Source: Rhodopseudomonas boonkerdii (GTDB lineage: Bacteria; Pseudomonadota; Alphaproteobacteria; Rhizobiales; Xanthobacteraceae). Taken from it: DNA of 64,000 nt. The stretch lies in assembly GCF_021184025.1 (NCBI RefSeq), contig NZ_CP036537.1, forward strand, positions 2,108,001-2,172,000. The letters run 5' to 3'. The notes under the pieces were generated by a model. It did not search any database and had not been told where the DNA came from. It saw only the letters and a program-made list of their open reading frames with translations. A program made the translations under genes and the position numbers. Positions 28,695-51,935 of this stretch are shown here, one piece after another. Each line of letters starts with the position of its first letter. Position 1 is the first letter of the stretch.

Positions 28695-30077
28695 ATGACC
28701 TATCGCCACACCATCGATAGCACGACCTATACCTTTGCCGGGCTGCGCGATCTGCTCGCCAAGGCCACACCCCCGCGCTCCGGCGATCGGCTTGCGGGGA
28801 TTGCGGCGGAGACCGCCGAGCAGATGATCGCCGCGCGGATGGCGCTGGCGGATCTGCCGCTCGTGCAATTCCTGAACGAAACCGTCATCCCTTATGAGAG
28901 CGACGAGGTAACCCGCCTCATCGTCGATACGCACGCCGCCGCGGCCTTCGCGCCGATCGCATCGCTCACCGTTGGCGGGTTTCGCGACTGGCTGCTGTCG
29001 GATGCTGCAACGCCTGAAGCGATGACACGGCTGGCGCCCGGCGTGACTCCGGAAATGGCGGCTGCTGTCTCCAAGCTGATGCGCAATCAGGATCTGATCC
29101 TGGCGGCCAAGAAGTGCGAGGTCGTCACCCGTTTCCGCAACACCATCGGCCTGCGCGGCCGCATGAGCGTGCGTCTGCAGCCCAATCATCCGTTCGACGA
29201 CATCAGGGGCATAGCCGCCTCGACGCTGGATGGCCTGTTGCTCGGCGCCGGCGACGCCTGTATCGGCATCAATCCGGCCAGCGACGATCCGGCGGTGCTC
29301 GGCCGGCTGGTGCGGATGCTCGACGACGTGATCGTCCGGCTCGGTATTCCCACGCAGAGCTGCGTGCTGACCCATGTGACCACCTCCATCGATCTGATCG
29401 CGCAGGGCGCTCCGGTCGATCTGGTGTTTCAGTCCATCGCCGGCACCGAAGCGGCGAACAGGAGCTTCGGCATCGACCTCGCCCTGTTGAAGGAAGCGCG
29501 CGAGGCCGGCCTGTCGTTGAAGCGCGGCACAATCGGCGACAATGTGATGTATTTCGAAACCGGGCAGGGCTCCGCCTTGTCCGCCAATGCCCATCACGGT
29601 GTCGATCAGCAGACCCTGGAAGCCCGCGCCTATGCGGTGGCGCGGGCCTTCTCGCCGCTGCTGGTGAACAGCGTGGTCGGCTTCATCGGTCCCGAATATC
29701 TCTATGACGGCAAGGAGATCATCCGCGCCGGGCTGGAGGATCATTTCTGCGGAAAATTGCTTGGCCTGCCGCTCGGCGTGGACGTCTGTTACACCAACCA
29801 TGCCGAGGCCGATCAGGACGATATGGACAACCTCATGACGCTGCTGGCCGCTGCCGGCGTCAATTTCATCATGGGCGTGCCGGGCGCCGATGACGTCATG
29901 CTGAACTATCAGTCGACATCCTTTCACGATGCGCTCTACTTGCGCGATCTGTTCGGTCTGAAGCGGGCTCCGGAATTCGATGCCTGGCTGTTGCAGGCGG
30001 GAATTGTCGATGGCGATCTGCGCATTCGCGACCAGGGCGGCGTGTTGCCGGATTTCGCGGCGCGGCTCATCGCCTGA
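28695..30077 (+). CDS. eutB: Ethanolamine ammonia-lyase large subunit
   Basis: A 460-residue B12-dependent ammonia-lyase large subunit that, with EutC, converts ethanolamine to acetaldehyde and ammonia. The start ATG 28695 is inside a longer open frame and gives the family length. Conserved segments include MLADxPLxxFLNExxIPYExDEVTRLI-like sequence near residues 58-85, AKKCEVVTRFRNTIGLRGRMSVRLQPNHP, and SIAGTEAANRSFGIDL. Its partner eutC lies 2.2 kb downstream on the same strand, separated by a radical SAM gene and a palindromic repeat pair. No carboxysome-like eut shell genes are in the window, so this is the soluble form of the pathway. Confidence 0.95.
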   Translation: MTYRHTIDSTTYTFAGLRDLLAKATPPRSGDRLAGIAAETAEQMIAARMALADLPLVQFLNETVIPYESDEVTRLIVDTHAAAAFAPIASLTVGGFRDWLLSDAATPEAMTRLAPGVTPEMAAAVSKLMRNQDLILAAKKCEVVTRFRNTIGLRGRMSVRLQPNHPFDDIRGIAASTLDGLLLGAGDACIGINPASDDPAVLGRLVRMLDDVIVRLGIPTQSCVLTHVTTSIDLIAQGAPVDLVFQSIAGTEAANRSFGIDLALLKEAREAGLSLKRGTIGDNVMYFETGQGSALSANAHHGVDQQTLEARAYAVARAFSPLLVNSVVGFIGPEYLYDGKEIIRAGLEDHFCGKLLGLPLGVDVCYTNHAEADQDDMDNLMTLLAAAGVNFIMGVPGADDVMLNYQSTSFHDALYLRDLFGLKRAPEFDAWLLQAGIVDGDLRIRDQGGVLPDFAARLIA

Positions 30078-30188
30078 CGTGGAGCTGACCACGTCGCGTC
30101 GGCCGCGCGGTCCCGTCACAATGTTGAAGGAATTCTGGCCCAGATTCGCCGCTTGTAACTGGATTTGGCTGGAGCGTTCGAACGGAGT

Positions 30189-30213
30189 GGAACGGTTTCA
30201 TCTCAGCGGCGTT
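30189..30213 (+). promoter_or_regulatory. EcfG-type general-stress promoter
   Basis: GGAAC at 30189-30193, 16 bases, then CGTT at 30210-30213 matches the EcfG consensus GGAAC-N16/17-CGTT. The radical SAM gene starts at 30262, so the leader would be about 40 bases. EcfG control of hpnP has been reported in Rhodopseudomonas palustris. Confidence 0.75.
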
Positions 30214-30261
30214 GTTATGGGTTTAGCGAGGGGCCGCTGATGCATCCGCAGAGGTTTTTGA

Positions 30262-31857
30262 ATGAGAGCTGAGGGCAGGCAGACGGCGCGGCGCATCCTG
30301 TGCGTCTTTCCGCGATATACTTCTTCATTCGGCACGTTCGAGTATTCATATCCCCTGACCGATGGCGTTCAGGCCTTCATGCCTCCCCAGGGGCTTCTCC
30401 TGATCGCGGCCTATATGCCGGAGAACTGGGAGGTTCGTTTCGTCGACGAAAACATCCAGACCGCCACGCCCAACGATTTTCTCTGGGCCGAGGCGGTGCT
30501 GGTCAGCGGCATGCACATCCAGCGCGCGCAGATGAACGACATCTGCCATCGCGCACATGCCTATGATCTCCCCGTCGCCATCGGCGGCCCGTCGGTGTCG
30601 TCCTGCCCCGATTACTACCCGGCCTTCGATTATCTTCATCTCGGCGAACTCGGCGATGCGACCGACCGGCTGATCGATATCCTGGAGAAAGATACAAAGC
30701 GTCCGCCGCGTCAGATCGTGCTGAAGACCGCCGACCGGCTCGACATGCATGACTTCCCGATTCCGGCCTATGAGCTGGCAGATATCCCGCGCTATTTTCT
30801 CGGCAGCATCCAGTACTCGTCCGGCTGTCCGTATCAGTGCGAATTCTGCGACATTCCCGGCCTCTATGGCCGTAATCCGCGCATCAAGACGCCGCAGCAG
30901 ATCACCGCCGAGCTCGACAAGCTGCTGGCCTGCGGCATCAATGGCTCCGTCTATTTCGTCGATGACAATTTCATCGGCAATCGCAAGGCTGCTCTCGATC
31001 TCCTGCCGCATCTCGTCGAGTGGCAGAAGAAGACAGGCTATGTACTGCGGTTGTCCTGCGAGGCGACGCTCAACATCGCCAAGCGGCCGGAGATCCTCGC
31101 GCTGATGCGCGATGCCTGGTTCGGCACGATCTTCTGCGGCATCGAGACCCCGGATCCAGCGGCGCTGAAGGCGATGAAGAAGGATCACAACATGATGGTC
31201 CCCATCATGGAGGCGATCCACACGCTGAACAGCTTTGGCATGGAGGTGGTGTCCGGCATCATTCTCGGCCTCGACACCGACAAGCCGGAGACCGGCGAAC
31301 ATCTGCTCGAATTCGTCGAGACCTCGCAAATCCCGCTGCTGACCATCAATCTGCTGCAGGCGTTGCCGCAGACCCCGCTCTGGGACCGCCTGAAGAAGGA
31401 AGGTCGCCTGATCGAGGACGAAGGCCGCGATTCCAACGTGGATTTCCTGCTGCCCTATGACGACGTGGTGCGCAGCTGGCGCCGCGCCATGGGATCGGCC
31501 TATGTGCCCGAGAAGCTGCTGCAGCGCTTCGAGTACCAGATCACGAACACCTATCCGCACCGCATCAAGCCGCCGGCTGGCGCCATGCTGACGGCGAAGA
31601 ACATCCGCCTGGGTCTTGTGATGCTGCGAAATATTTTCTGGAAGGTCGGCGTACTCGGCGACTACAAGCGCGCGTTCTGGAAATTCGCCGTCCGGCGTCT
31701 GGCCCGCGGCGAGATCGAATATCTGATCTCGTCCATCATGGTCGCGCATCACCTCATCAACTTCGCCCGCGACGCCTCCGGCGGCGTGACCAACGCATCC
31801 TATTACTCGATGAAACTGCAGGATGCAGCGGCCGCGCCTGCGGTGCCGGCGGAGTAG
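30262..31857 (+). CDS. hpnP: B12-binding radical SAM protein, probable hopanoid C-2 methylase HpnP
   Basis: A 531-residue radical SAM enzyme with an N-terminal B12-binding domain (about residues 10-150; GLLLIAAYMPENWEVRFVDENI), a CxxxCxxC cluster motif in SSGCPYQCEFCDIPG near residues 190-205, and a C-terminal extension of about 200 residues. The whole sequence resembles HpnP, which adds a methyl group to C-2 of the hopanoid A ring. The related HpnJ is shorter and contracts a ribose ring. Calling it HpnP is supported by the EcfG-type promoter upstream and by the hopanoid genes starting 5 kb downstream. GAGG lies seven bases before the ATG. It sits between eutB and eutC. Other DUF4070-type methylases are not fully excluded. 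Confidence 0.8.
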   Translation: MRAEGRQTARRILCVFPRYTSSFGTFEYSYPLTDGVQAFMPPQGLLLIAAYMPENWEVRFVDENIQTATPNDFLWAEAVLVSGMHIQRAQMNDICHRAHAYDLPVAIGGPSVSSCPDYYPAFDYLHLGELGDATDRLIDILEKDTKRPPRQIVLKTADRLDMHDFPIPAYELADIPRYFLGSIQYSSGCPYQCEFCDIPGLYGRNPRIKTPQQITAELDKLLACGINGSVYFVDDNFIGNRKAALDLLPHLVEWQKKTGYVLRLSCEATLNIAKRPEILALMRDAWFGTIFCGIETPDPAALKAMKKDHNMMVPIMEAIHTLNSFGMEVVSGIILGLDTDKPETGEHLLEFVETSQIPLLTINLLQALPQTPLWDRLKKEGRLIEDEGRDSNVDFLLPYDDVVRSWRRAMGSAYVPEKLLQRFEYQITNTYPHRIKPPAGAMLTAKNIRLGLVMLRNIFWKVGVLGDYKRAFWKFAVRRLARGEIEYLISSIMVAHHLINFARDASGGVTNASYYSMKLQDAAAAPAVPAE

Positions 31858-31946
31858 TGCTCCTCCTTCATTCTGAGAGCCTGACCGGAAATGTGGCCCG
31901 TAATTGGCGCTGCTGGCCGCCCAGGCGGAACGCAACAGCTCTGTCT

Positions 31947-32053
31947 CTCATGGTGAGGAGGCGCGCAGCGCCGTCTCGAACCATGAGATGGCTTGGCTCG
32001 GAACCTTTTCGGCCATCCTTCGAGACGCCGCTGCGCGGCTCCTCAGGATGAGG
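31947..32053 (+). repeat. Dispersed repeat, family B, copy 1
   Basis: About 107 bases from ctcatggtgaggagg to cctcaggatgag, with internal inverted symmetry around ccttcgagacgccg. It is closely similar to copy 3 at 42894-43006 and occurs inverted as copy 2 at 32143-32240. Confidence 0.85.
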
Positions 32054-32142
32054 GGTGGAGAATCTAGATTCTGAGCTGAACGGGCATTGTTCCGAGCAAA
32101 AGCAGTCGAAAACCACCTCGACCGCTTTTTGAGTCAGACACG

Positions 32143-32240
32143 GAGGAACCGCGCCGCGGCGTCTCGTATGATAGCCGCAGACGCAGGAGGCCAAGCCATC
32201 TCACGGTTCGAGACGGCGCGTTGCGCCTCCTCACCATGAG
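32143..32240 (-). repeat. Dispersed repeat, family B, copy 2 (inverted)
   Basis: The reverse complement of family B copy 1, more diverged at its left end (gaggaaccgcgccgcggcg). Its right end, cctcctcaccatgag, is the complement of the start of copies 1 and 3. It lies 90 bases after copy 1. Confidence 0.8.
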
Positions 32241-32277
32241 GGTGGAGTTTCTTGGCGGGGTTGGGCAAAGTGCCTTC

Positions 32278-33054
32278 ATGATCGAACGCGACACGCCAAT
32301 AGCGGGCCCTTCAACTCCGTCGCTTGCCGATTTGCGACGGCTGACGCCAGCGCGTGTCGGCCTTGGCCGCGCGGGCGCAAGCCTCACGACGCCGGCGCTG
32401 CTTGATTTTACTCTCGACCATGCACGTGCCCGCGATGCCGTGCATGCGCCGTTCGCGGCTGCCGTCATGGCTACAGCTCTCGCCGACCGAGGTTGGCGGG
32501 CGCTGACCGTATCGAGCCTTGTGGCCGACCGCGCGGATTACCTGAAGCGTCCCGATCTCGGCCGCAAGCTCGCCCCCGAATCGCGCGCCTTGCTCGACGA
32601 GCGAAATGGTGACGGCTGCGACGTTGCGCTTGTGATTGCGGACGGGCTTTCGCCGGCGGCGGTCAATGCGCACGGGATCGGCCTGGTCACGGTGTTGCTG
32701 CCGAAGCTCGAGGGTCTGTCCCTCGGGCCGATGGTCGTTGCCAGTGGTGCGCGCGTGGCCCTCGGCGACGAGATTGGCGCGCTGCTTAATGCGCGCATGA
32801 CCGTCATGCTGATCGGCGAGCGGCCTGGGCTATCCGCGCCACAGAGTCTCGGTGCCTATATCACTGTCGCGCCCCGGCCGGGCCGGAGCGATGCCGAACG
32901 CAATTGTGTCTCCAATATCCAGTCCGCAGGACTGAGCTTCGACGAGGCTGCGATCAAGATTGCGTGGCTGGCTCGCGAGGGCCTGCGACGTGGCGTCACC
33001 GGTATCGCTTTGAAGGAAGAAAGCGGAATGCATCTGGCCGCACCGGCAGGTTGA
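32278..33054 (+). CDS. eutC: Ethanolamine ammonia-lyase small subunit
   Basis: A 258-residue light chain of ethanolamine ammonia-lyase. The start ATG 32278 gives the usual family length; a TTG upstream at 32221 lies inside a repeat and would add 19 residues of no family similarity. Characteristic segments are [41 protein letters not shown] and [26 protein letters not shown] sequence, followed by [11 protein letters not shown] and the Cys-containing [22 protein letters not shown]. It is separated from eutB by hpnP and the inverted repeat pair. If it is transcribed from a separate promoter, none is recognised, so it may be read through from the hpnP promoter. Confidence 0.94.
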
Positions 33055-33251: not shown

Positions 33252-35621
33252 ATGGACCAGATGAGCTCCCACGACGCCGACATCAAGAAACTGGGGCGTG
33301 GTCCATCCAGCATCGCCTTCGGCCTTGAGCGCATGGGCCTAATCGCCGTTCGTGCCCCTGTGCTCTCCTGCATCATTCTGCTGGCGCTGGTGATCGGCGC
33401 CGTGTTCGGCATCCAGCGCATCAAGATCGACGATTCGCTGAGCCAGCTGTTCCGCTCCGACAGCAAGGAATACAAACAGTATGAGGAAGTGACGAAGCGT
33501 TTCCCCTCGACCGAATTCGATGTGCTCGTGGTGCTCGAAGGCAAGACGCTGCTCGCCCGCGACAATCTGGAAAAGATGCGCGACCTCGTTACCGATCTGC
33601 AACTGGTCGATGGCGTACGCGGCCTGATCTCGATCTTCTCGGCACGGCAGACGCCAGCGCCGGGTAAATTGCCGGCGGCGCTGTTTCCCAGCGAATTGCC
33701 GGAAGGCGCGGCCTATGACCAGTTCATCGAGACGGTGAAGCAGAACGAGTTGATCCGCGGCAAGCTGCTGTCGGAAGACGGCACTCTCGCGCTCGTGGTG
33801 CTGTCGCTCGATCCAGAAGTCGTGAGCAACAACAAGCTGTCCGGCGTCATCGCAAATATCCGCAAGACCATGAATGAAGATCTGGCGGATAGCGGCCTGA
33901 CCAAGGAATTGTCCGGCGTGCCGGTGATGCAGCTCGAAATCCGCAATGCGGTCGAGCGCGACGGCCTGATGTATAATGTCATCGGCATTCTCGCCGGCTG
34001 CATCATCGCCATCATCTTCTTCCGCAAGATCTCTTTCATGATCGTGGCGGCGTTTCCGCCGCTGCTGGCGATCCTGCTGGCGCTGGGTGCGCTCGGTTGG
34101 GCCGGCTTCAGCCTCAACATGTTCCTCAATGTGATGACGCCGCTGATCATGGTGATCAGTTTTGCCGACTCCATGCAACTGACCTTCGCCGCGCGTGACC
34201 GCCTGATCGCCGGTGAGGACAAATACTCGGCCTTCACCAACGCGGTGCGCGTTGTCGGTCCGGCCTGCGTGTTGACCCATGGCACCGCAGGCATTTCGTT
34301 CCTCGCTCTGCAGTTCTCGGACTCCGATCTGATCCGCGCTTTCGGTGAGGCGGGTCTGACCGCCACCATCATCGCGCTGGTCGCGGTGCTGTCGCTGGTG
34401 CCGGTGTTCGGCGTGCTGCTGGTGCGCAACGAAAAGATCTTCGCGCAGAAGTTCCAGGCAGCCGATGCGGGCGTGCAGGCGCTGCGCGCTTTCTGTTACT
34501 GGATTGCGGTGCGCATGGTCGGGCGTCCCGGCCTGTTCAGCCTGATTTCACTGCTGGTCGTGGTCGGCCTCGGCACCGTCTATGCCAGTCTCGAGCCACG
34601 CTATCGTCTGGCTGATCAGGTGCCGGACAAGGAACAGGCGGTGGCGGCCAGCGGCCGTCTCGACGCCAAGCTTACCGGCGCCAATCCCATCGACGTGCTG
34701 ATCGAATTCCCGAAGGGACAGGACTTGTATTCGCCTGAAACGCTCAAGACCATCGCCGATGTCCATGCGATGGTCGAGAAGACATCCGGTGTCGGCAATG
34801 TCTGGTCGCTGGAAACGCTGCGCCGCTGGCTGGCGGAGAAGGCGGGCTCGACCGATGTCGCAACGCTGAAGGAATATGTCGACGTTATTCCCGAGCATCT
34901 CGTGCGCCGCTTCATCTCGGCCGACAAGACCGCGGTCGTGGTGTCAGGCCGCGTGCCCGACAGTGACGCCAGTCAGATCCTGCCGGTGGTGGACAAACTC
35001 GATACGGCGCTGAACACCGTCCGCAGCGCGCATCCCGGCTATGAGATTGCGGTGACGGGCCTCTCTGCGATCGCGGCGCGCAACAGCGCCAGCATGATCG
35101 AAAAGCTCAATCACGGCTTGACCATCGAGTTCGGTCTGGTCGCGGTCTTCATCGGTCTGGCCTTCCGCTCCTGGGTGGTGATGCTGGCCTGCATCCTGCC
35201 GGGCATCTTTCCGGTGGTGTTGTCGGGATTCGTGTTGTGGCTGCTCGGGGAGGGGCTGCAATTCGCCAGCGTCGTCGCGCTCACGGTCTCCTTCGGTCTC
35301 GGCTTGTCCGCGACCATCCACTTTCTCAACCGTCTGCGGCTTGAAGATACGCCAGGCACCGATCCGGCCGTCGCTGTCGAGCGCGCGACCGTGCTGGTCG
35401 GCCCGGCGCTCATTCTCACGACGGTGGTGCTGGCCTGCGGCCTCGTGGTGACGGTGTTTTCGGATTTGCCATCGCTACGGCTGTTCGGCTGGCTTAGCGC
35501 CTTCTCGATGGTGGCTGCGCTGGTCGCCGACCTCTTCATCCTGCGTCCGACATCGATGTGGCTGATCCAGATGCAGCAGAAGCTGACGGGCAAATCGACG
35601 TTGGCGAAGGGGATGGAATGA
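33252..35621 (+). CDS. MMPL/RND-family transporter near hpnP
   Basis: A 789-residue RND-type lipid or hydrophobe exporter. It has an N-terminal helix (about residues 34-55), a periplasmic domain of about 160 residues, a sterol-sensing-like bundle of six helices (about 235-430), another periplasmic domain (about 450-620), and a second bundle. The transport motifs SFADSMQLTFAARDRL and SFGLGLSATIHFLNRLRL occupy equivalent places in the two halves. It resembles HpnN in plan but is a distinct protein, 73 residues shorter than the HpnN-like gene at 45650. Its position between eutC and hpnC makes a second hopanoid or membrane-lipid transporter plausible. The ATG is preceded by AGGACA. Confidence 0.82.
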   Translation: MDQMSSHDADIKKLGRGPSSIAFGLERMGLIAVRAPVLSCIILLALVIGAVFGIQRIKIDDSLSQLFRSDSKEYKQYEEVTKRFPSTEFDVLVVLEGKTLLARDNLEKMRDLVTDLQLVDGVRGLISIFSARQTPAPGKLPAALFPSELPEGAAYDQFIETVKQNELIRGKLLSEDGTLALVVLSLDPEVVSNNKLSGVIANIRKTMNEDLADSGLTKELSGVPVMQLEIRNAVERDGLMYNVIGILAGCIIAIIFFRKISFMIVAAFPPLLAILLALGALGWAGFSLNMFLNVMTPLIMVISFADSMQLTFAARDRLIAGEDKYSAFTNAVRVVGPACVLTHGTAGISFLALQFSDSDLIRAFGEAGLTATIIALVAVLSLVPVFGVLLVRNEKIFAQKFQAADAGVQALRAFCYWIAVRMVGRPGLFSLISLLVVVGLGTVYASLEPRYRLADQVPDKEQAVAASGRLDAKLTGANPIDVLIEFPKGQDLYSPETLKTIADVHAMVEKTSGVGNVWSLETLRRWLAEKAGSTDVATLKEYVDVIPEHLVRRFISADKTAVVVSGRVPDSDASQILPVVDKLDTALNTVRSAHPGYEIAVTGLSAIAARNSASMIEKLNHGLTIEFGLVAVFIGLAFRSWVVMLACILPGIFPVVLSGFVLWLLGEGLQFASVVALTVSFGLGLSATIHFLNRLRLEDTPGTDPAVAVERATVLVGPALILTTVVLACGLVVTVFSDLPSLRLFGWLSAFSMVAALVADLFILRPTSMWLIQMQQKLTGKSTLAKGME

Positions 35622-36941: not shown

Positions 36942-37159
36942 GGGTTCCATCTCCCGATTATCCGGGCTCACGGCGCCTGCCGCGAGCCCGCCGGCAGCTG
37001 TTCCGGCCTGGCATGCGCTGCGGCCGAGGGTGGCATATTGGCATTGGTTTCGCTGGCCGATTTGGCCTATATGAGGGCGCAGACGGCTCGTCGGCCGGTA
37101 TTTTTGAACCGCGACAGCGTCCACTTCACCCCAGTTTTCATTGAACGAAGCCGAGATTG

Positions 37160-38038
37160 ATGACCCCTGCGAGCGAGCTGCGATCCGGCAAGACCGATCG
37201 TGACGAGAACTTCCCGGTCGCGTCGAGGATCATCCATTCGCGCCACCGGGCGCTGATTCTGGCGTTCTATAATTTCGTCCGGACCGCCGACGATATTGCC
37301 GATCATGCGCTGCTCGATGCCTCGACCAAGCTCGCGATGCTGGACGAGCTGGAGACGGGGCTGCTCGGCAAGCACGATGAGCAGGCCGAAGCGAATACGC
37401 TACGCGCTGCCTTCGCCGAGCGCGGCATGCCGCCGCGCCATGCGCTCGATCTACTCACCGCCTTCCGGATGGACGTGACCAAGCTGCGCTATGCCGATTG
37501 GGACGAACTGATCCATTACTGCTCGTTCTCGGCGATGCCGGTCGGTCGTTTCATGCTCGAGGTGCATGGCGAGGACAAGGCCACCTGGCCGGCTTCGGAT
37601 GCCATCTGTGCGGCGCTGCAGATCAACAACCATCTGCAGGATTGTGCCAAGGATTATCGCGATCTCGATCGCGTCTACCTGCCGCAGGATATCATGCAGC
37701 GCCATGACGTCGGCGTCGAAGCGCTCGACAAGCCAAAGTCGTCGCTGGCGCTGCTCGCATGCCTGCGCGAGATCGTGTCTCGCAACGAGGCCTTGCTGCG
37801 CGAGGGCGACAGTCTGACGGTGCACATGGCGGACACGCGGTTTGCCTGCAACATCGCCGTCATCGAGAAATTCGCTTGGGAAATCTCGAAGCTGCTGCGG
37901 GTGCGCGATCCGCTGAGCGAGAAGGTGCATCTCTCCAAGGGCAGCATGGCCGGTCATGCGCTCGCGGCCATCGCGGGGTGCCTGTGGCGCCGCGCGACCA
38001 CATCCGTTCCGCTCTCGCGTCCGGCGGCGGGCAAATGA
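37160..38038 (+). CDS. hpnC: Hydroxysqualene synthase HpnC
   Basis: A 292-residue squalene/phytoene-synthase-fold enzyme, first gene of the core hopanoid operon. With HpnD and HpnE it replaces squalene synthase: HpnD makes presqualene diphosphate, HpnC converts it to hydroxysqualene, and HpnE reduces that to squalene. The first Asp-rich motif is RTADDIADHALL and the second LQDCAKDYRDLDRVYLP. ATG 37160 is preferred over the TTG immediately before it. The stop overlaps the hpnD start in an ATGA. HpnC rather than HpnD is chosen from gene order and from the motif context, where HpnD has FCRQVDDIADS and ILRDIDEDA. Confidence 0.93.
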   Translation: MTPASELRSGKTDRDENFPVASRIIHSRHRALILAFYNFVRTADDIADHALLDASTKLAMLDELETGLLGKHDEQAEANTLRAAFAERGMPPRHALDLLTAFRMDVTKLRYADWDELIHYCSFSAMPVGRFMLEVHGEDKATWPASDAICAALQINNHLQDCAKDYRDLDRVYLPQDIMQRHDVGVEALDKPKSSLALLACLREIVSRNEALLREGDSLTVHMADTRFACNIAVIEKFAWEISKLLRVRDPLSEKVHLSKGSMAGHALAAIAGCLWRRATTSVPLSRPAAGK

Positions 38039-38877
38039 ACCAGATGAATACCCAGACCGAGACCAGCGAAGCCCAGGGCGTCGCCGCGGGCAGCTCATTC
38101 TACGCGGCGATGCGTATCCTGCCGCGCGAGCAGCGCGACGCCATGTTTCAGATCTACAGCTTTTGCCGTCAGGTCGACGACATCGCGGACTCGCATGAGC
38201 CGCGCGAGCTGCGGCTCAGCCAGATGCAGCAGTGGCGCGAGGACATCGAAGCGCTTTATGCCGGCAACCCGCCGCCGCGCGTGCGCGACTATGTCGAGCC
38301 GATCAAGCGTTTCGGCATGCTCAAGGAAGACTATCTCGCCGTCATCGACGGGATGGAGATGGATATCCCCGCCGACATCCGTGCGCCGGATGAGGCAACC
38401 TTCGATCTCTATTGTGATCGCGTGGCGAGCGCGGTGGGCCGGCTGTCGGTGAAGGTGTTCGGCATGCCCGATGAGGACGGCGTGCTGCTCGCCCATCATC
38501 TCGGCCGCGCGCTGCAGATCACCAATATCCTGCGCGATATCGATGAAGATGCCGCGCTCGGTCGTCTCTATCTGCCGCGCGAACTGCTCTATCATGCCGG
38601 CATCACCTCCAGCGACCCGCAGGTGGTGATCAAGGAGAAGGCGCTTCCGAAGGTGGCTGCACCTCTCGTGCGCCGGGCTCAGGAGCATTTCAAGAAGTCT
38701 GACGAGATCATGGCCCGTAACAGGCGCCGCGCCGTGCGTGCGCCGCGGATCATGTCGAAATACTATCACGCCATCCTGGAATTGCTGGTGAAACGCGGCT
38801 TCGCTCTGCCGCGCGATCCCGTTCGTCTCGGCAAGGCCTCCAAGATAGCGATCCTGCTGCGATACGCGATCATCTGA
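38035..38877 (+). CDS. hpnD: Presqualene diphosphate synthase HpnD
   Basis: A 280-residue enzyme that condenses two farnesyl diphosphate molecules to presqualene diphosphate. The Mg-binding motifs are YSFCRQVDDIADS (about residues 42-54) and ITNILRDIDEDAALGRLYLPRE (about 162-183). The start is the ATG overlapping the hpnC stop; the open frame extends further upstream within hpnC but that is a shadow. The stop overlaps the hpnE start (TGATG), showing tight coupling of the three squalene genes. Confidence 0.95.
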   Translation: MNQMNTQTETSEAQGVAAGSSFYAAMRILPREQRDAMFQIYSFCRQVDDIADSHEPRELRLSQMQQWREDIEALYAGNPPPRVRDYVEPIKRFGMLKEDYLAVIDGMEMDIPADIRAPDEATFDLYCDRVASAVGRLSVKVFGMPDEDGVLLAHHLGRALQITNILRDIDEDAALGRLYLPRELLYHAGITSSDPQVVIKEKALPKVAAPLVRRAQEHFKKSDEIMARNRRRAVRAPRIMSKYYHAILELLVKRGFALPRDPVRLGKASKIAILLRYAII

Positions 38878-40127
38878 TGTCCAAAACCGCCCATATCATT
38901 GGCGCCGGCGTGTCCGGCCTTGCCGCTGCTGTCAGTCTCAGCAATGCCGGTTACCAGGTCCACGTGCATGAGGCGACCCAGCAGGCCGGTGGCCGCTGCC
39001 GCTCCTATTTCGATGCGCAGACCGGACTCACCATCGACAACGGCAATCACCTCGTCCTGTCGGGCAACAGCCATGTCCTCAACTATGCGAAGTCGATCGG
39101 CACCGAAGCTGGCCTCGTCGGCCCGGCGCGCGCCCTATTCGCCTTCGCCGATCTTACATCCGGCAAGCGCTGGCAGCTCGATCTCGGTGACGGCCGCATT
39201 CCGACCTGGCTGTTCGATGCATCGCGTCGCGTGCCCGATACGTCGGTCGGCGATTATTTCGCGCTGACGCCGCTGCTCTGGGCCGGCAATGACAAGCTCG
39301 TTGGCGACACCATCAAATGTGAAGGCGTGCTCTACGACCGCCTCGTGCAACCGCTGCTGCTCGCGGCACTGAATGTCGATCCGCCAGAAGGCTCTGCCGG
39401 TCTTGCCGGCGCCATCGTGCGCGAGACCTTGCTGGCGGGCGGGCAGGCGTGTCGCCCGTTGATTGCGCGCTCCGGCCTCAGCGACGTGCTGGTCGAACCC
39501 GCCGTCGAGATGCTGCGCAAGAAGGGTGCCGGCGTTCACTTCGGCCACGAGTTGCGCGGCTACACCATGGCCGGGGAGCGTGTCAGCGAATTGAAGTTCG
39601 GCGAGGGCGATGTGATCGCGCTCGGTGCCGAAGATGTGGTGATCATGGCCGTGCCGGCATGGTCGGCGAAGAACCTGCTTCCAGGCGTCAAGACGCCGAC
39701 GGAAATGCGCGCTATCGTCAATGCGCATTTTGCCTACGTGCCGCCCCCGGGCCAGGCGCCGCTGGTCGGTGTCGTCGGCGGCATCGTCGAATGGCTGTTC
39801 GCCTTCGACAATCGTTTCTCGATCACCATCAGCAATGGCGATCGTTTCGTGAATCTGCCGCGCGAACAGTTCGCGCAGCAGATCTGGGACGAGATCTGTC
39901 AGGTCTCGAACATCAAGGCGCCGTTGCCAAAATGGCAGATCGTGCGTGAGCGCCGCGCGACCTTTGCGGCGACGCCGGCGCAGAACGCCTTGCGCGCCGG
40001 AACCCGCACCGAATTCAAGAACCTGTTCCTTGCCGGTGATTGGACCGATACCGGCCTGCCGGCGACCATTGAAGGCTCGATCCGCTCCGGCGATCGTGCC
40101 GCCGATATGGCACTGGGGAAGATCTGA
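38877..40127 (+). CDS. hpnE: Squalene-associated FAD-dependent reductase HpnE
   Basis: A 416-residue flavoprotein of the amine-oxidase/desaturase fold that reduces hydroxysqualene to squalene. The dinucleotide-binding motif IIGAGVSGLAAAVSLSNAGYQVHVHEA is at residues 6-32, followed by GGRCRSYFDAQTGLTIDNGNHL, and the C-terminal FAD motif FLAGDWTDTGLPATIEGSIRSG closes the domain. Its ATG overlaps the hpnD stop. A 57-base gap separates it from shc, which is still likely to be in the same operon. Confidence 0.95.
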   Translation: MSKTAHIIGAGVSGLAAAVSLSNAGYQVHVHEATQQAGGRCRSYFDAQTGLTIDNGNHLVLSGNSHVLNYAKSIGTEAGLVGPARALFAFADLTSGKRWQLDLGDGRIPTWLFDASRRVPDTSVGDYFALTPLLWAGNDKLVGDTIKCEGVLYDRLVQPLLLAALNVDPPEGSAGLAGAIVRETLLAGGQACRPLIARSGLSDVLVEPAVEMLRKKGAGVHFGHELRGYTMAGERVSELKFGEGDVIALGAEDVVIMAVPAWSAKNLLPGVKTPTEMRAIVNAHFAYVPPPGQAPLVGVVGGIVEWLFAFDNRFSITISNGDRFVNLPREQFAQQIWDEICQVSNIKAPLPKWQIVRERRATFAATPAQNALRAGTRTEFKNLFLAGDWTDTGLPATIEGSIRSGDRAADMALGKI

Positions 40128-40184
40128 ACGGAAACACACTCAGTCGCCCAACGTTACGACGCGTACGGAGATCAATCGAACATC

Positions 40185-42146
40185 ATGGCCTCGACCACTT
40201 CTGAACTCACCATCGACAGGGCGAAGCTGGAAGGCAGCATCGCATCGGCCAAGAAGAGCCTGCTGGATTTCCAGCAGAGCGATGGTCACTGGGTGTTCGA
40301 GCTCGAAGCCGATGCCACCATTCCGGCGGAATATGTGCTGATGCGGCACTTCCTTGCGGAGCCGGTCGATGCGGAACTGGAAGCCAAGATCGCGAACTAT
40401 CTGCGCCGCATCCAGGGCGCGCATGGCGGCTGGCCGCTGGTGCATGACGGTCCGTTCGATATGAGCGCGACCGTGAAGGCCTATTTCGCGCTGAAGATGA
40501 TCGGTGACGACATCGACGCGCCGCATATGAAGCGGGCACGCGAGGCGGCGCTGGAGCGGGGAGGCGCCATCAACGCTAATGTCTTCACGCGTTTCCTGCT
40601 GTCGATGTTCGGCGTAACTACCTGGCGCAGCGTTCCCGTGCTGCCGGTCGAGATCATGCATCTGCCGGCGTGGTTTCCGTTCCACCTCAACAAGATGTCC
40701 TATTGGGCGCGCACCACCGTCGTCACTTTGATCGTGCTGGCGGCCAAGAAGGCGCGGGCCAAGAATCCGAAGGGCGTCGGCATCGACGAACTGTTCCTGC
40801 AGGATCCGCGCACGATCGGCACGCTGGCCCGCGCGCCGCATCAGAATCGCGGCTGGTTCGCGTTCTTCACTGCTATCGACAAGCTGCTGCGTGCTGCCGA
40901 ACCTTATTTTCCGAAGAAGTTTCGCCAGAGCGCCATCGATAAGGCTGTCGCCTTCTTCGAGGAGCGGCTGAACGGCGAGGATGGCATCGGCGCCATTTTC
41001 CCGCCGATGGCCAATGCCGTCATGGTCTATGACGTTCTCGGCTATCCCGAGGATTATCCGCCGCGCGCCGTCCAGCGCCGCGGTATCGACAAGCTGCTCG
41101 TCATCCACGAGCATGAAGCCTATTGCCAGCCCTGCGTTTCGCCGGTGTGGGATACCGCGCTGACGGCCCATGCGATGCTGGAGACTGGCGGCGAGGATAC
41201 GTTCGCGCAGGCCAAGCGCGGCCTCGACTGGCTGGTGCCGCGGCAGGAACTCGAAGTGAAGGGGGACTGGGCGGACAAGCGTCCGGACCTCCGTCCGGGA
41301 GGCTGGGCGTTCCAGTACAACAACGCTCATTATCCCGATCTCGACGACACGGCCGTGGTCATGATGGCGATGGATCGTGCGCGCCGGCAGACCGGCACGA
41401 AGGATTACGATCAGGCGATCGATCGCGGCAAGGAGTGGATCCTTGGCATGCAGAGCAGCGACGGCGGCTTCGCGGCTTTCGACGTCGATAACCACTATCA
41501 CTACCTGAACAATATTCCGTTCTCCGATCACGGCGCTCTGCTCGATCCGCCGACCGAGGATGTGACCGCGCGCTGTGTCTCCATGCTGGCGCAGCTCGGG
41601 GATACGGTCGAGAGCTCGAAGCCGCTGGCGGATGCGGTTGCCTATCTCCGCCGCACCCAGCTTGCGGAGGGCTCGTGGTACGGCCGCTGGGGGCTCAATT
41701 ACATCTACGGCACCTGGTCGGTGCTGTGCGCGCTCAACATGGCCGGCGTGAACCATCAGGACCCGGCGATGCGCAAGGCTGTCGCCTGGCTCTATTCGAT
41801 CCAGAACGAGGACGGCGGCTGGGGCGAGGATGCGGTCAGCTACCGTCTCGACTACAAGGGCTTCGAGGGGGCCCCGTCCACAGCCTCGCAATCGGCATGG
41901 GCTTTGCTTGCATTGATGGCGGCTGGAGAAGCCGACAATCCGGCGGTGGAACGCGGAATGCGATACTTAATGGCCACACAGAACGAAAAAGGGTTGTGGG
42001 ACGAGGCCCGATACACCGCCACCGGCTTCCCGCGCGTATTTTATCTGCGATATCATGGCTACTCAAAATTCTTTCCGCTCTGGGCGTTGGCGCGGTTCCG
42101 GAATTTGCAGAGCACCAACAGCAGGACGGTCGGAGTCGGAATGTGA
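40185..42146 (+). CDS. shc: Squalene-hopene cyclase
   Basis: A 653-residue class II terpene cyclase that folds squalene into the pentacyclic hopene. The protonating motif DLDDTA is at residues 385-390, with Asp387 and Asp388 in the place of the catalytic DxDD aspartates. Several QW repeats appear, including QSSDGGFAAFD and QNEDGGWGED, and an N-terminal FQQSDGHWVFEL. The protein binds the cytoplasmic membrane as a monotopic dimer in known relatives. The stop overlaps the GTG start of hpnG, so translation is coupled. Confidence 0.97.
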   Translation: MASTTSELTIDRAKLEGSIASAKKSLLDFQQSDGHWVFELEADATIPAEYVLMRHFLAEPVDAELEAKIANYLRRIQGAHGGWPLVHDGPFDMSATVKAYFALKMIGDDIDAPHMKRAREAALERGGAINANVFTRFLLSMFGVTTWRSVPVLPVEIMHLPAWFPFHLNKMSYWARTTVVTLIVLAAKKARAKNPKGVGIDELFLQDPRTIGTLARAPHQNRGWFAFFTAIDKLLRAAEPYFPKKFRQSAIDKAVAFFEERLNGEDGIGAIFPPMANAVMVYDVLGYPEDYPPRAVQRRGIDKLLVIHEHEAYCQPCVSPVWDTALTAHAMLETGGEDTFAQAKRGLDWLVPRQELEVKGDWADKRPDLRPGGWAFQYNNAHYPDLDDTAVVMMAMDRARRQTGTKDYDQAIDRGKEWILGMQSSDGGFAAFDVDNHYHYLNNIPFSDHGALLDPPTEDVTARCVSMLAQLGDTVESSKPLADAVAYLRRTQLAEGSWYGRWGLNYIYGTWSVLCALNMAGVNHQDPAMRKAVAWLYSIQNEDGGWGEDAVSYRLDYKGFEGAPSTASQSAWALLALMAAGEADNPAVERGMRYLMATQNEKGLWDEARYTATGFPRVFYLRYHGYSKFFPLWALARFRNLQSTNSRTVGVGM

Positions 42147-42889
42147 TCTTGGGTGATGGGGGCATTTCCGCTGCGGCGACGTCGTCCGCGATGATGTCGG
42201 CCGATCCGCGGCCGGTATTGATCGTGACGGGGCTGGTCCAGGAAGCGAAGATCGCGGCCGGGCCCGGGATGACGGTCATCTGCTCGTCCAGCGATCCGGT
42301 TCAGCTCCGTAGCCTGCTCGCCGATATCGATCCCCTCAGCGTTCGAGGCGTCATCTCCTTCGGTGTCGCCGGTGGCCTCGATCCCGCCCTCACGACGGGC
42401 ACCGTCGTTCTGGCCACTGAGGTGGTCGCCGCCGGTCAGGTCTGGCCGGCGTCCGAACAGCTCAGCGCCGAGCTTCTGGCAGGTTCCGGCGTTGGCAATC
42501 AGAAGGTTGTGCGCGGCGGTCTGGTCGGCGTCGAGAAGGTCGTCACCGGGCAGGCCGGCAAGGCCGCCTTGCGGTCGGAATTCGGCGCCTCGGCCGTCGA
42601 TATGGAAAGCCATATCGCCGCTGAATTCGCGGCGCTGGCCGGTTTGCCCTTTGCCGCTCTGCGTGTGGTCAGCGACCCCGCGACCCGCGCGCTCCCGGAG
42701 ATTGCCACCACCGCCATCAAGCCGAATGGCGATGTCGATCTGCGCAAGGTTCTGCGCGGCATCGCTCGTAATCCGCTGGTGATCCGCGCGCTGGTCTCGA
42801 CCGGCCGCGACTTCAACCGTGCGCTGCGCAGCCTGAAGGATTGCCGTAGCTATTTGCTGAGCAGGATTGGTCTGGCGGCGGAAGCGTAA
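42143..42889 (+). CDS. hpnG: Hopanoid nucleosidase HpnG
   Basis: A 248-residue purine-nucleoside-phosphorylase-fold protein that removes adenine from adenosylhopane, giving ribosylhopane. Typical features are GVISFGVAGGLDPALTTG and AVDMESHIAAEFA, which bind the nucleoside and phosphate or water. The start is GTG 42143, overlapping the shc stop; ATG 42191 is an alternative if the N terminus is shorter. It is the last gene of the plus-strand operon and faces hpnH, which acts one step earlier, on the other strand. Confidence 0.9.
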   Translation: MILGDGGISAAATSSAMMSADPRPVLIVTGLVQEAKIAAGPGMTVICSSSDPVQLRSLLADIDPLSVRGVISFGVAGGLDPALTTGTVVLATEVVAAGQVWPASEQLSAELLAGSGVGNQKVVRGGLVGVEKVVTGQAGKAALRSEFGASAVDMESHIAAEFAALAGLPFAALRVVSDPATRALPEIATTAIKPNGDVDLRKVLRGIARNPLVIRALVSTGRDFNRALRSLKDCRSYLLSRIGLAAEA

Positions 42890-43080: not shown

Positions 43081-44256
<1,176 letters not shown>

Positions 44257-44296
44257 TACAGTTTTCTTTCTGGGCATCTTCACTAAAGAAGGTTGA

Positions 44297-45244
44297 TCAA
44301 ACCGCGGTCAGTTCAGCGGGTAGTCGAAATTCAATCGTCTCTTCGCGTCCTGGCAGAACCGATACCGAAACCGGCCCGATGCGCCGCAGGGTTTCAATCA
44401 CGTCGTCTACAAGCACTTCTGGCGCCGAAGCGCCAGCCGTTATGCCGACAGTCCGCGCGCCCCTTAACCATTCGGGGTTCAGCTCGCTGCCATCGGCGAT
44501 GAGGTAGCTCGCGACACCGACTTCCGTTCCAATCTCTCGGAGTCGGTTGGAATTGGAACTGTTGGCCGCCCCCACGACCAGGATCACGTCCACGAGCCGG
44601 CTGAGGTCTCTTACCGCAGATTGGCGGTTTTGTGTCGCATAGCAGATATCGCGGGTGTCCGGGCCCTGAATATCGCTGAATTTCGCCTGTAACGCGGAAA
44701 TGATGTCCCGTGTGTCATCTACGCTCAACGTCGTTTGCGTGATGTAGGCGACCGGTTCGTCCACGGGAATCGTCAGCGCGGCCACATCGGCGATGCTCTG
44801 GACGATATGAATAGGGCCGGGAACCTGTCCTATAGTACCGTCGACTTCCGGATGCCCCGCATGGCCGATGAGAATGACCGTTCGGCCCTTGGCGACGTAG
44901 CGCTTTCCTTGGTTATGGACCTTGGCGACGAGCGGGCAGGTGGCGTCCAGAACCGGCAAGCCGCGGGCCTCGGCTTCTTCCTCGACGGTGCGGGCGACGC
45001 CGTGGGCGCTGAAGACCGTCATGGCGTGGTCAGGTACCTCTGAGAGTTCCTCGACGAAAATAGCGCCCTTCGATTTCAACGTTTCGACGACATGCCTATT
45101 GTGCACGATCTCGTGTCGCACATACACCGGCGCGCCATAGCGCTCGAGCGCTCGCTCCACGATCTCGATGGCTCGCACGACGCCTGCACAGAATCCGCGC
45201 GGCTGGGCCAAATAGATCTCCAAGGGGCGGGGGCGATCAAGCAC
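44297..45244 (-). CDS. ispH: 4-hydroxy-3-methylbut-2-enyl diphosphate reductase IspH
   Basis: A 315-residue iron-sulfur enzyme that makes IPP and DMAPP in the last step of the MEP pathway. The three cluster cysteines are in [33 protein letters not shown] and [10 protein letters not shown], and substrate residues appear in [11 protein letters not shown] and TTLSVDDT. The start at 45244 is GTG ([14 protein letters not shown]); no strong ribosome site precedes it, and TTG codons just inside are possible. Placed directly before hpnH, it couples isoprenoid supply with hopanoid synthesis. Whether this is the sole ispH in the genome is unknown. Confidence 0.95.
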
Positions 45245-45649
45245 GAGAGACAGAGTCCATCACGAATTCCGACAAACAATAATTGTGTACCATAATCAGG
45301 GACATATCCAGCCCGGCCAAGTATTTGAGCCGTTCTGTGTGACAAAAATCACTCAGTATGCAACACCCGGCGGGAACAGGGTTCCTGAACGCGGGTTAAG
45401 GCTTAAACCTTTACGATATCTCGGATTTAGGCCAAAGAATGCTGCGAAATTTCAACAGTTCGTCACTTTACCCCGCGCGTTGACCCCGATAACAGGACGT
45501 CGCAGCTCTCAATCAATTCCACCTCACGTTTTGTGCCATCGCGTCACGTTGCTGATAGCGCATCCGTTCGGCTACGAAGCCATCCTTTGCGGAACCCACC
45601 GAAGCGCGCCGCATTCATTGCGAGCCCCGTCCAGATAGAAAGATAAAGC
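45245..45649. other. Divergent promoter region of ispH-hpnH and hpnN
   Basis: About 405 bases, AT-richer than the genes, with no open frame of family resemblance. GGAAC and its complement GTTCC lie three bases apart at 45373-45385; GGAAC-N16-GGTT on the plus strand is one mismatch from the EcfG consensus. Other promoter elements are not recognisable. Confidence 0.6.
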
Positions 45650-48238
45650 GTGCTGACAAAAGTCGTCGTCTCGATCGTGAATTTCTGCACCCGATTCGCG
45701 CTTCCGGTGGTGATTGTCGGTGTGCTGCTCTCGATCGCGTCCGCCTGGTATTCGGCCAAGAATTTCTCGATCAACACCGACATCAATAAGCTGATCTCGC
45801 CGAATCTGGACTGGCGTCAGCGCGACATGGCCTTCGACAAGGCATTCGATCAGGAGCGCCTGATCATTGCCGTTGTCGAGGCGCCGACGCCGGAATTCGC
45901 CAATGCAGCGGCGAATGCTCTTGAGAAAAAGCTCGCTCCCAACAAGAAGAACTTCGATTCCGTTCGCCGTCTCGACGGCGGCGAGTTCTTCGAGAAGAAC
46001 GGCCTGTTGTTCCTGCCCACCAAGGAAGTGCAGGGGCTGACCGGTCAGTTCGAACAGGCTGCGCCGCTGCTCGAAATCATGGCCGGCGATCCCAGCATCC
46101 GGGGCCTCACCGGCGCACTCGAAACCGGTCTCATGGGCATTCGCCGCGGCCAGCTCCAACTCGACAGCGCAGCCGGCACATTCGACACGGTCGCCGCGAC
46201 GATCGAAGACGTCCTGAAGAACGGTAAGGGCACGTTCTCCTGGCGTGGCCTCGTCAGCGACAAGCCGCTGACTGATTCTGACAAGCGCGCCTTCATCGAG
46301 GCGAAGCCGGTGCTCGATTTCGCGGCGCTGGAGCCCGGCAAGGATGCAACCGACGCCATCCGTCAGGCTGCCGTCGATCTGAACATCGCGGGAGAATACG
46401 GCGCGCGGGTGCGTCTTACCGGTCCGGTTCCGATCGCCAATGAGGAATTCTCCACCGTACAGGACGGCGCGGTGCTCAATGGCGTCGTTACCGTCCTGCT
46501 GGTGCTTGGTATCCTCTGGCTGGCGCTGCATTCGGCAAAGATCATCGGTGCGGTGTTCGTCAACCTGTTCGTCGGTCTCGCCATCACCACAGCCCTTGGC
46601 CTGATGATGGTGGGCTCGCTGAACCTTTTATCGATTGCGTTCGCCGTTCTATTCGTCGGTCTCGGCGTTGATTTCGGCATTCAGTTCAGTGTCCGCTACC
46701 GCTCCGAGCGCTACAAGAAGGATGATCTCCGCGGAGCTCTAGCCAGCGCGGCCAATTATTGTGCCGTGCCGTTGTCGCTGGCCGCCTTCGCCACCGCCGC
46801 AGGCTTCCTTTCCTTTTTGCCGACCGACTACAAAGGTGTATCCGAACTCGGCAAGATCGCCGGTCTCGGCATGATGATCGCATTCATCACCAGCATCACC
46901 ATGCTCCCGGCGCTGCTCGATCTTCTGAATCCCGCCGGCGAGAAAGAGCCTGTCGGTTACGCCTTCCTCGCGCCAGTCGATCGTTTCCTCGAGGAGAAGC
47001 GCTACTGGATCATTGGCGGCACGCTAGCCGTGACCCTTGCGGGCCTGCCCCTGCTGGCCCACCTGCGTTTCGATTTCAATCCAATCAATCTGCGCAATCC
47101 GCATGTCGAATCGATCGCCACGTTCCTCGATCTGCGCCGCGACCCCAACACCGGCGCGAACGCCGTGAATGTGATGGCGCCCAACGAAGCTGGTGCGAAA
47201 CAGGTTGAAGAGCGTCTGTCCAAGCTGCCGGAAGTCGCGCGTACGATTTCACTCGACAGTTTCGTACCGCAAGATCAGCCGGCCAAGCTTGCCGCCATTC
47301 AGGCTGGCGCAAAGGTGCTGGAGCCTGCGCTCAATCCGGAGTCTGTCGATCAGGCGCCGACCGATGCTGAGAATGTGACCGCGCTCAAGGATTCGGCTGC
47401 AAGCCTGCGCAAGCTCGCAGGCAATCAGACCGGCCCTGGCGCGGTCGCTGCCAGACGGCTCGCGGATGCGCTTGCCAAGACCGCCGATGCCAGCGAGGCC
47501 GTGCGCAATCAGGTGCAGGCGACCTTTGTCGTGCCCCTGAAGATCGCTCTCGCGCAGCTTCGCAATCTCATGCAGGCAGCGCCGGTCACTCTCGACAATC
47601 TGCCGCCCCAACTCGTGAACTCCTGGAAGACCAAGGATGGCCAGATTCGCGTCGAGGCGCAGCCGAGCGGTGATCCCAACGACAATGATACGCTCCGCAA
47701 ATTCGCCGATGCGGTGCTGAAGTCTGAGCCGCTCGCTGTCGGCGGTCCGGTCTCTATCCTCAAGTCGGGCGATACGATCGTGACCGCCTTCATTCACGCC
47801 GGTTTCTGGGCATTGATCACAATTTCGCTGCTGCTATGGCTGGCGCTGCGTCGCTTCGTCGATGTACTCCTCACCATCGTTCCGCTGTTGGTCGCGGGCG
47901 CCGTGACGCTGGAAATATGCGTGCTGATCGGGCTGCCGCTCAACTTTGCCAACATTATCGCGCTGCCGTTGCTGCTGGGTGTCGGTGTGGCGTTCAAGAT
48001 CTACTATGTCGTCGCCTGGCGCGCGGGCCATAAAAACCTGCTGCAGTCGTCGCTGACGCGCGCTATCTTCTTCAGCGCGCTGGCAACGGCCACGGCCTTC
48101 GGCAGTCTCTGGCTGTCGAATCATCCGGGGACGGCGAGCATGGGCAAGCTGCTGGCGATGTCCTTCGTGGTGACGTTAGCGGCGGTGCTGCTGTTCCAGC
48201 CGGCCCTGATGGGCAAGCCGCGCGAAATCGACCGGTGA
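45650..48238 (+). CDS. hpnN: Hopanoid-associated RND transporter HpnN
   Basis: An 862-residue MMPL/RND transporter that moves hopanoids from the inner to the outer membrane. It starts at GTG 45650 with FCTRFALPVVIVGVLLSIASAWYSAKNFSINTDINKLISPNLDWRQRD, a stretch characteristic of HpnN. Two sterol-sensing-like bundles contain GLGVDFGIQFSVRYRSE and LLGVGVAFKIYYVVAWR, separated and preceded by periplasmic domains of roughly 220 residues. The name rests on N-terminal and motif resemblance plus position. The stop codon lies in a 14-base tandem duplication. A perfect hairpin terminator follows. Confidence 0.93.
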   Translation: MLTKVVVSIVNFCTRFALPVVIVGVLLSIASAWYSAKNFSINTDINKLISPNLDWRQRDMAFDKAFDQERLIIAVVEAPTPEFANAAANALEKKLAPNKKNFDSVRRLDGGEFFEKNGLLFLPTKEVQGLTGQFEQAAPLLEIMAGDPSIRGLTGALETGLMGIRRGQLQLDSAAGTFDTVAATIEDVLKNGKGTFSWRGLVSDKPLTDSDKRAFIEAKPVLDFAALEPGKDATDAIRQAAVDLNIAGEYGARVRLTGPVPIANEEFSTVQDGAVLNGVVTVLLVLGILWLALHSAKIIGAVFVNLFVGLAITTALGLMMVGSLNLLSIAFAVLFVGLGVDFGIQFSVRYRSERYKKDDLRGALASAANYCAVPLSLAAFATAAGFLSFLPTDYKGVSELGKIAGLGMMIAFITSITMLPALLDLLNPAGEKEPVGYAFLAPVDRFLEEKRYWIIGGTLAVTLAGLPLLAHLRFDFNPINLRNPHVESIATFLDLRRDPNTGANAVNVMAPNEAGAKQVEERLSKLPEVARTISLDSFVPQDQPAKLAAIQAGAKVLEPALNPESVDQAPTDAENVTALKDSAASLRKLAGNQTGPGAVAARRLADALAKTADASEAVRNQVQATFVVPLKIALAQLRNLMQAAPVTLDNLPPQLVNSWKTKDGQIRVEAQPSGDPNDNDTLRKFADAVLKSEPLAVGGPVSILKSGDTIVTAFIHAGFWALITISLLLWLALRRFVDVLLTIVPLLVAGAVTLEICVLIGLPLNFANIIALPLLLGVGVAFKIYYVVAWRAGHKNLLQSSLTRAIFFSALATATAFGSLWLSNHPGTASMGKLLAMSFVVTLAAVLLFQPALMGKPREIDR

Positions 48239-51847: not shown

Positions 51848-51935
51848 TGACTTGTCCGTTGCAGCGACTTGTCTATTACAGCCAATGTCCGGCCGTGGGT
51901 GGCCGGACGTTATTGTGATGCCCCGGTTTCCGTCG

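Follow-up and report, generated by a model that had tools for sequence, protein, structure and literature searches.

Is hopanoid C-2 methylation under the control of the general stress response at this locus, and how widely does such control extend among related bacteria? 2-Methylhopanes serve widely as molecular fossils, and Kulkarni, Wu and Newman reportedly described, in 2013 (J Bacteriol 195:2490), an EcfG-regulated hpnP in Rhodopseudomonas palustris TIE-1. Promoters read by EcfG carry the label ECF15, with N17 as the upper limit of their spacing. The original prediction placed such a promoter directly before a probable hopanoid C-2 methylase gene and took EcfG control of hpnP to be known in R. 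palustris; the latter is indeed stated for TIE-1 in the parts available to us of two papers (PMC4676935, PMC11005386), and concerns the same gene and the same sigma factor system as in the window (the whole stretch of DNA analyzed, 64,000 nucleotides), in a relative. The mechanism is already known, its EcfG control previously published for one strain; new here are the clade-wide conservation of the site, an altered form of it in Bradyrhizobium, and a possible target at hpnN. The literature searched, which comprised partial texts and few subscription journals, yielded no paper with the Bradyrhizobium variant, the hpnN site, or the absence of the site outside the family, and no report of EcfG control of hpnN.

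The identification of the gene as a probable hopanoid C-2 methylase stands, both by the source names of homologues at 78–82% identity and by a hopanoid cluster 5–19 kb downstream (Table 1). Among the best 120 homologues listed, nine (78–82% identity) bear the source name hopanoid C-2 methylase, and more bear the unspecific one "radical SAM superfamily enzyme YgiQ." The protein matches PF04055 and PF13282 above cut-off and contains the CxxxCxxC motif as CPYQCEFC. The N-terminal cobalamin-binding domain PF02310 is unreported in this HpnP and in its nearest homologue, P0001, and is precomputed for many others. An NCBIfam search with the protein returned 16 families, none above cut-off and no HpnP model among them, with HpnR and HpnJ far below theirs; against its own genome, the HpnP query gives one match at E ≤ 0.001. 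The closest HpnP proteins among 80 named relatives (the named loci) are those of L033 (Bradyrhizobiaceae bacterium PARB1, 96%) and L038 (Tardiphaga, 95%), followed by other Tardiphaga, and on this basis the genome is described as Tardiphaga-like. The host has the genes to make hopanoids: shc scores 762 bits (cut-off 431) and hpnH 558.6 bits (cut-off 225), and hpnC, hpnD, hpnE, shc, hpnG, hpnH, hpnN, and an hpnO-like aminotransferase gene all lie within 19 kb downstream of hpnP, the hpnO name being based on position and aminotransferase class, with no HpnO model match. A resistance–nodulation–division (RND) transporter gene at 33252–35621 was rejected as hpnN because it scores 64 bits where 752 are required; hpnN itself begins at 45650.

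Table 1 Features of the hpnP region, given as positions of the window
Feature	Position	Strand	Basis or remark
eutB, ethanolamine ammonia-lyase large subunit	28695..30077	+	directly upstream of hpnP
Conserved element (G)CCACAATnTTGArgAATT	30115..30134	+	alignment of hpnP upstream regions
-35 element GGAAC of the putative EcfG-type promoter of hpnP	30189..30193	+	direct reading; kept in relatives
Spacer, 16 bases	30194..30209	+	direct reading
-10 element CGTT	30210..30213	+	direct reading
Predicted transcription start, ~40-base 5' leader	30219..30222	+	from spacing only
AGAGG, ribosome-binding-like (SD-like)	30250..30254	+	direct reading; 7 bases before hpnP ATG
hpnP, hopanoid C-2 methylase, 531 aa, radical SAM + DUF4070	30262..31857	+	homology, domains, context
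eutC, ethanolamine ammonia-lyase small subunit	32221..33054	+	downstream of hpnP
hpnC-hpnD-hpnE-shc-hpnG, hopanoid biosynthesis	37157..42889	+	no EcfG-like site in 200 bases 5' of each
hpnH (43081-44283) and ispH (44297-45244)	43081..45244	-	
Further GGAAC-N17-GTT site	45373..45397	+	starts 277 bases before hpnN
Second EcfG-like site GGAAC-N17-ATT	45591..45615	+	starts 59 bases before hpnN GTG
hpnN, hopanoid transporter	45650..48238	+	NF052374, 1334 bits (cut-off 1100)

On re-reading, the letters at 30189–30213 match the predicted GGAAC-N16-CGTT, which has the EcfG spacing, and 48 bases separate 30213 from the ATG of hpnP at 30262, as had been claimed. The site thus combines GGAAC, a spacer within 16–17 bases, and CGTT, the make-up expected of an EcfG promoter. 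Its two boxes and spacing are the same as those of the EcfG promoters of R. etli (consensus GGAAC-N16-CGTT, PMC3892343) and S. melonis (consensus GGAAC-N17-20-GTT, PMC6599016), as far as the accessible parts of these papers go, and the window site shows no difference from them. The hpnP sites of relatives differ from the published consensus in a varying first -10 base (genus-weighted C 0.45, G 0.28, T 0.14, A 0.13); in 70 such sites the spacer is 16 bases long in 54 and 17 in 16. No known RNA element is apparent in the hpnP leader, Rfam giving nothing for 29900–30700 at E up to 1.

How much does such a match mean? In the 64-kb window, GGAAC-N15..18-CGTT occurs four times against 1.62 expected, and 12 of 100 shuffles reach four. 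Across the whole genome (5.63 Mb), GGAAC-N16/17-CGTT occurs 94 times and the reversed pattern 120 times. We estimate that a sense match falls within a given 150 bp at ~0.1% per gene, or before some 6–7 genes by chance, if ~5,300 genes are assumed. Because the exact pattern occurs at chance frequency, a lone match carries little weight genome-wide, and motif frequency was rejected as evidence. A match well placed at a gene known elsewhere as an EcfG target is worth more. Given the chance-level frequency, the independent support that the motif was claimed to lend the HpnP assignment is only moderate.

The regulators that an EcfG promoter calls for are present in this genome, with phyR, nepR, and ecfG side by side. 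PhyR matches NF006623 with 364.4 bits (cut-off 240), and the EcfG-like sigma factor matches NF009192 with 390.6 bits (cut-off 307), adjoining a NepR that matches PF18557 with 56.6 bits (cut-off 25.7); NepR was found in 30 of 30 relatives tested. These regulators have sites of their own, GGAAC-N16-CATT upstream of nepR-ecfG and GGAAC-N17-CGTA upstream of phyR. On the phyR side, GGAACTTT is present in 21 of 21 relatives' loci, a count that covers those of the 30 returned on the forward strand. The -10 element beside the regulator genes is loose. The hpnP site comes nearer the published consensus than theirs do. It counts against the EcfG reading that the motif is so loosely defined, no GTT-type -10 being found even in the genome's own nepR–phyR region.

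To gauge conservation, we examined the hpnP upstream regions of 110 genomes of the family, consisting of the window, 29 loci, and 80 further stretches. The 29 loci were among the matches listed from a search in which 178 of 296 genomes matched at E ≤ 1e-50, including paralogues near 38% identity. Paralogues, incomplete matches, and most genomes of the Bradyrhizobium-type genus (g25, of which four were kept) were left out of the 110. The sample overlaps the named loci, with which 22 of its regions agree in every base over 150 bp. Of the 106 non-g25 genomes, 71 have GGAAC-N17/18-GTT in the 200 bp before hpnP, whereas 200 rounds of shuffling yielded 0.81 on average and never more than 4, a comparison that takes no account of the kinship of genomes within each genus. 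In a scan of spacings from 5 to 35, there were 55 sites at 17 and 16 at 18, 20 at 27, and at most 10 at any other; 19 of the 20 at spacing 27 share their GGAAC with a 17/18 site and reflect a further GTT ten bases past the first. Permuted or reversed motifs gave at most six at any spacing.

By genus, the site is present in 14 of 16 genomes of g1 (the window's genus), 1 of 8 in g3, 2 of 2 in g6, 1 of 1 in g8, 3 of 6 in g12, 9 of 9 in g20, 16 of 22 in g26, 15 of 15 in g28, 8 of 8 in g40, and 2 of 2 in g45. Parts of the family are without GGAAC-GTT, which speaks against the EcfG reading: seven of eight g3, three of six g12, and six of 22 g26 genomes, and the whole of g9 (two genomes), g10 (five), g13 (two), g17 (two), g22 (one), g25 (four), g35 (one), g43 (three), and g46 (one). 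If ATT is allowed at -10, the count rises to 75 of 106, with the addition of the two missing g1 genomes, one g10 genome, and the g46 genome. Five further distant family members have no such site at hpnP (0/5).

Single-linkage clustering of the 71 spacers at 60% identity gives 22 groups, the largest with 18 members, so the conservation is not just a product of recent common descent. Eight genera have two or more sites; across them the spacer sequences have diverged, and the two boxes and the distance between them have not. It is this conservation at hpnP, not the motif alone, that makes the site convincing as a predicted promoter. Outside the family, we searched 347 genomes of the order and obtained a match at E ≤ 1e-100 in 26, of which 13, from three families, lie outside the family; GGAAC-N17-20-GTT precedes none of these 13 hpnP genes, and a G[C/A/T]AAC variant precedes two. 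In this small outside sample, the site looks like a trait of the family.

The phototrophic genus g28, which we guess to be Rhodopseudomonas, offers the nearest comparison with the known system; reaction-centre genes are present in 10 of 10 g28 genomes tested, and also in 2 of 2 of g6 and 1 of 1 of g46. The site lies at -118 to -127 in 13 of 15 g28 genomes (taken as Rhodopseudomonas), versus -73 in the window. The -10 element of the window site is the full CGTT, in a comparison that covered the g28 genomes.

Bradyrhizobium departs from this pattern. We defined 52 Bradyrhizobium-type loci (L061–L112), of which 48 are titled Bradyrhizobium and four otherwise (L065, L066, L104, and L107); one of the latter, L107, is titled Frankia sp. 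RB7 and is probably a mislabelled or contaminated record. None of the 52 has GGAAC-N17/18-[G/A]TT within 200 bp of hpnP. Once aligned, 49 of the 52 proved to carry G[C/A/T]AAC-N17/18-[G/A]TT 5' of the CCACAAT element, starting at about -106 to -154, and the idea that Bradyrhizobium had simply lost the hpnP promoter was revised. Shuffling gives a mean of 1.48 and a maximum of 5, and spacings shifted by five give 0 and 3; since the Bradyrhizobium-type loci are closely related, the 49 are not 49 independent cases. Three of the four g25 genomes in the 110-genome sample also have the variant. A tree of 85 HpnP proteins, made by a quick method with a midpoint root, requires four changes of site type against a shuffled mean of 26.0, and places five Bradyrhizobium-titled loci with the variant (L044, L046, L054, L058, and L059) near the base of the window's side. 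We take blr2995 to be hpnP of Bradyrhizobium. Neither this locus tag nor the word "hopanoid" occurs in the main text of the Bradyrhizobium transcription start site paper (PMC4842269). The accessible part of the S. melonis paper includes GCAAC sites in its table of EcfG-dependent genes (PMC6599016).

Sites of this kind are not confined to hpnP. The site nearest hpnN (Table 1) has the CATT form of -10, as before the genome's own nepR-ecfG, and the further GTT-type site is common to three others (G155, G189, and G244) of 14 genomes of the window's genus. We surveyed hpnN in 79 of 80 genomes, leaving out G173 (whose match starts at residue 15) and second copies. GGAAC-N17/18-[G/A]TT lies within 100 bp of hpnN in 31 of 79 (shuffle mean 0.46, maximum 4): 14 of 14 in g25, 7 of 14 in g1, 3 of 6 in g40, 2 of 2 in g6, 2 of 13 in g28, 1 of 8 in g20, and 1 of 1 in each of g8 and g46. 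None occurs within that distance in the 13 genomes of g26, or in g12 (three), g43 (two), and g45 (two); an ATT-type site lies further up, at about -129, in 8 of 13 g26 genomes. GTT alone, within 200 bp, gives 16 of 79 genomes (mean of shuffles 0.36), and g25 accounts for 14 of these. As the g25 spacers are alike, the 14 g25 sites amount largely to one case.

Within 200 bases of hpnC, hpnD, hpnE, shc, hpnG, and hpnH (21 genomes each) and of hpnO (14 genomes), no GGAAC-N17/18-[G/A]TT was found, most of these seven genes being weak controls because they lie inside a gene run. In the same genomes hpnP has the site in 19 of 21, ispH in 2 of 18, and a small gene at 35755 in 2 of 21. From its sequence, hpnN is a possible second EcfG target, and its site predicts stress-driven hopanoid export as well. 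The two genes carry sites on different terms: Bradyrhizobium-type genomes have a consensus site on hpnN and a changed -35 on hpnP, the phototrophic g28 has the site on hpnP and rarely on hpnN, and the window genome has EcfG-like sites on both. The contrast is based on two lineages. Our tentative suggestion, which we hold at somewhat less than even odds, is that the family's general stress response may drive hopanoid remodelling, through methylation by HpnP, and outer-membrane export, through HpnN, not synthesis, with the load shifted between hpnP and hpnN by lineage. According to the part of PMC11005386 available, it has yet to be tested directly whether hopanoid levels in Bradyrhizobium are tied to the general stress response.

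We consider the site at 30189–30213 to be a working EcfG promoter of hpnP with a probability of roughly 0.88, and weighed other readings against this one. Another ECF sigma factor might read the site, and one is encoded nearby, together with a zinc-finger anti-sigma factor, at 50538–51943. This SigH/RsrA-like pair adjoins the hpnO-like gene, and the best-scoring solved relative of the sigma factor is SigH; such relatives use GGAA-N18-GTT. Its distribution fits poorly with that of the site. No match at E ≤ 1e-30 was found in 35 of 51 genomes, including all five g40 and all nine g28 genomes tested, yet GGAAC-GTT is kept in 8 of 8 g40 and 15 of 15 g28 genomes, and the factor is absent from 29 of the 39 tested genomes that have the site. 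This patchy presence led us to set the neighbouring factor aside, and we regard an ECF factor other than EcfG as a very unlikely reader. EcfG remains the best candidate, in a comparison that covered one rival ECF factor.

The upstream region also bears on whether the motif might be a chance match, with hpnP transcribed together with eutB, which ends 184 bases upstream, or from the CCACAAT element. That element is itself conserved: at ≤3 mismatches it is found in 16 of 16 genomes of g1, 2 of 2 of g6, 4 of 9 of g20, 4 of 4 of g25, 8 of 8 of g40, and 1 of 1 of g46, and in none of g12, g26, g28, or g45. It was dropped as a part of eutB, being present also where no eutB was found (L041–L043, L045), and inspection by eye gave nothing convincing as a FixK, RpoN, or sigma-70 match. 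In g1, g6, g40, g46, and the element-bearing g20 genomes, the element precedes the GGAAC site. The chance-level frequency of the exact motif in the genome fits a coincidence; the retention of both boxes and spacing in eight genera with two or more sites, while spacers vary, argues the other way, and we consider coincidence very improbable. A reading compatible with the main one, doubtful in our estimation, is that the promoter is real and minor, hpnP being mostly EcfG-independent and 2-methylhopanoid not mainly a readout of stress. It draws on the second conserved element upstream of hpnP and on two species that, according to the accessible part of PMC12583986, have hpnP and no detected product, with culture conditions named as a possible cause.

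If the site is the EcfG promoter that we favor, the rest can be inferred by analogy with R. palustris TIE-1: that EcfG binds it, where transcription begins, that stress induces hpnP, and how the lipids change. Under stress, PhyR would bind NepR and free EcfG, and RNA polymerase with EcfG would start hpnP transcription near 30220, which would raise C-2 methylation of hopanoids. 2-Methylhopanoids are thus probably stress-controlled here, by analogy with Rhodopseudomonas. The conservation in eight genera, the absence from the 13 hpnP genes outside the family, and the altered Bradyrhizobium form indicate where the stress reading may hold.

Several further observations concern the surroundings of the site. 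A second GTT follows ten bases past the -10 GTT (30210–30223), as in 19 of the 71 hpnP sites, in g1, g40, and g20. Counting this genome, 16 of 51 have a match to the ECF factor of 50538–51943; a cupredoxin-like frame lies upstream of the sigma and anti-sigma pair, seen by eye. The hpnP gene is flanked by eutB and eutC (28695–33054); among the named loci, eutB is directly upstream of hpnP in 65 of 80 and eutC near it in 67 of 80, and the hpnP-eutC pair also occurs in two g28 genomes and one g6 genome. Ethanolamine ammonia-lyase and HpnP are both cobalamin users. The true start of eutC is probably near 32300, as most homologues align from residue 25–34. In the gap between hpnP and eutC (31930–32250) lies a partly palindromic repeat that is dispersed through the genome, with 109 matches if each arm is counted; in L033 the gap is ~43 bases. 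In nearly all named loci, the MMPL/RND transporter gene found here at 33252–35621 comes after hpnP, or after eutC if that is present.
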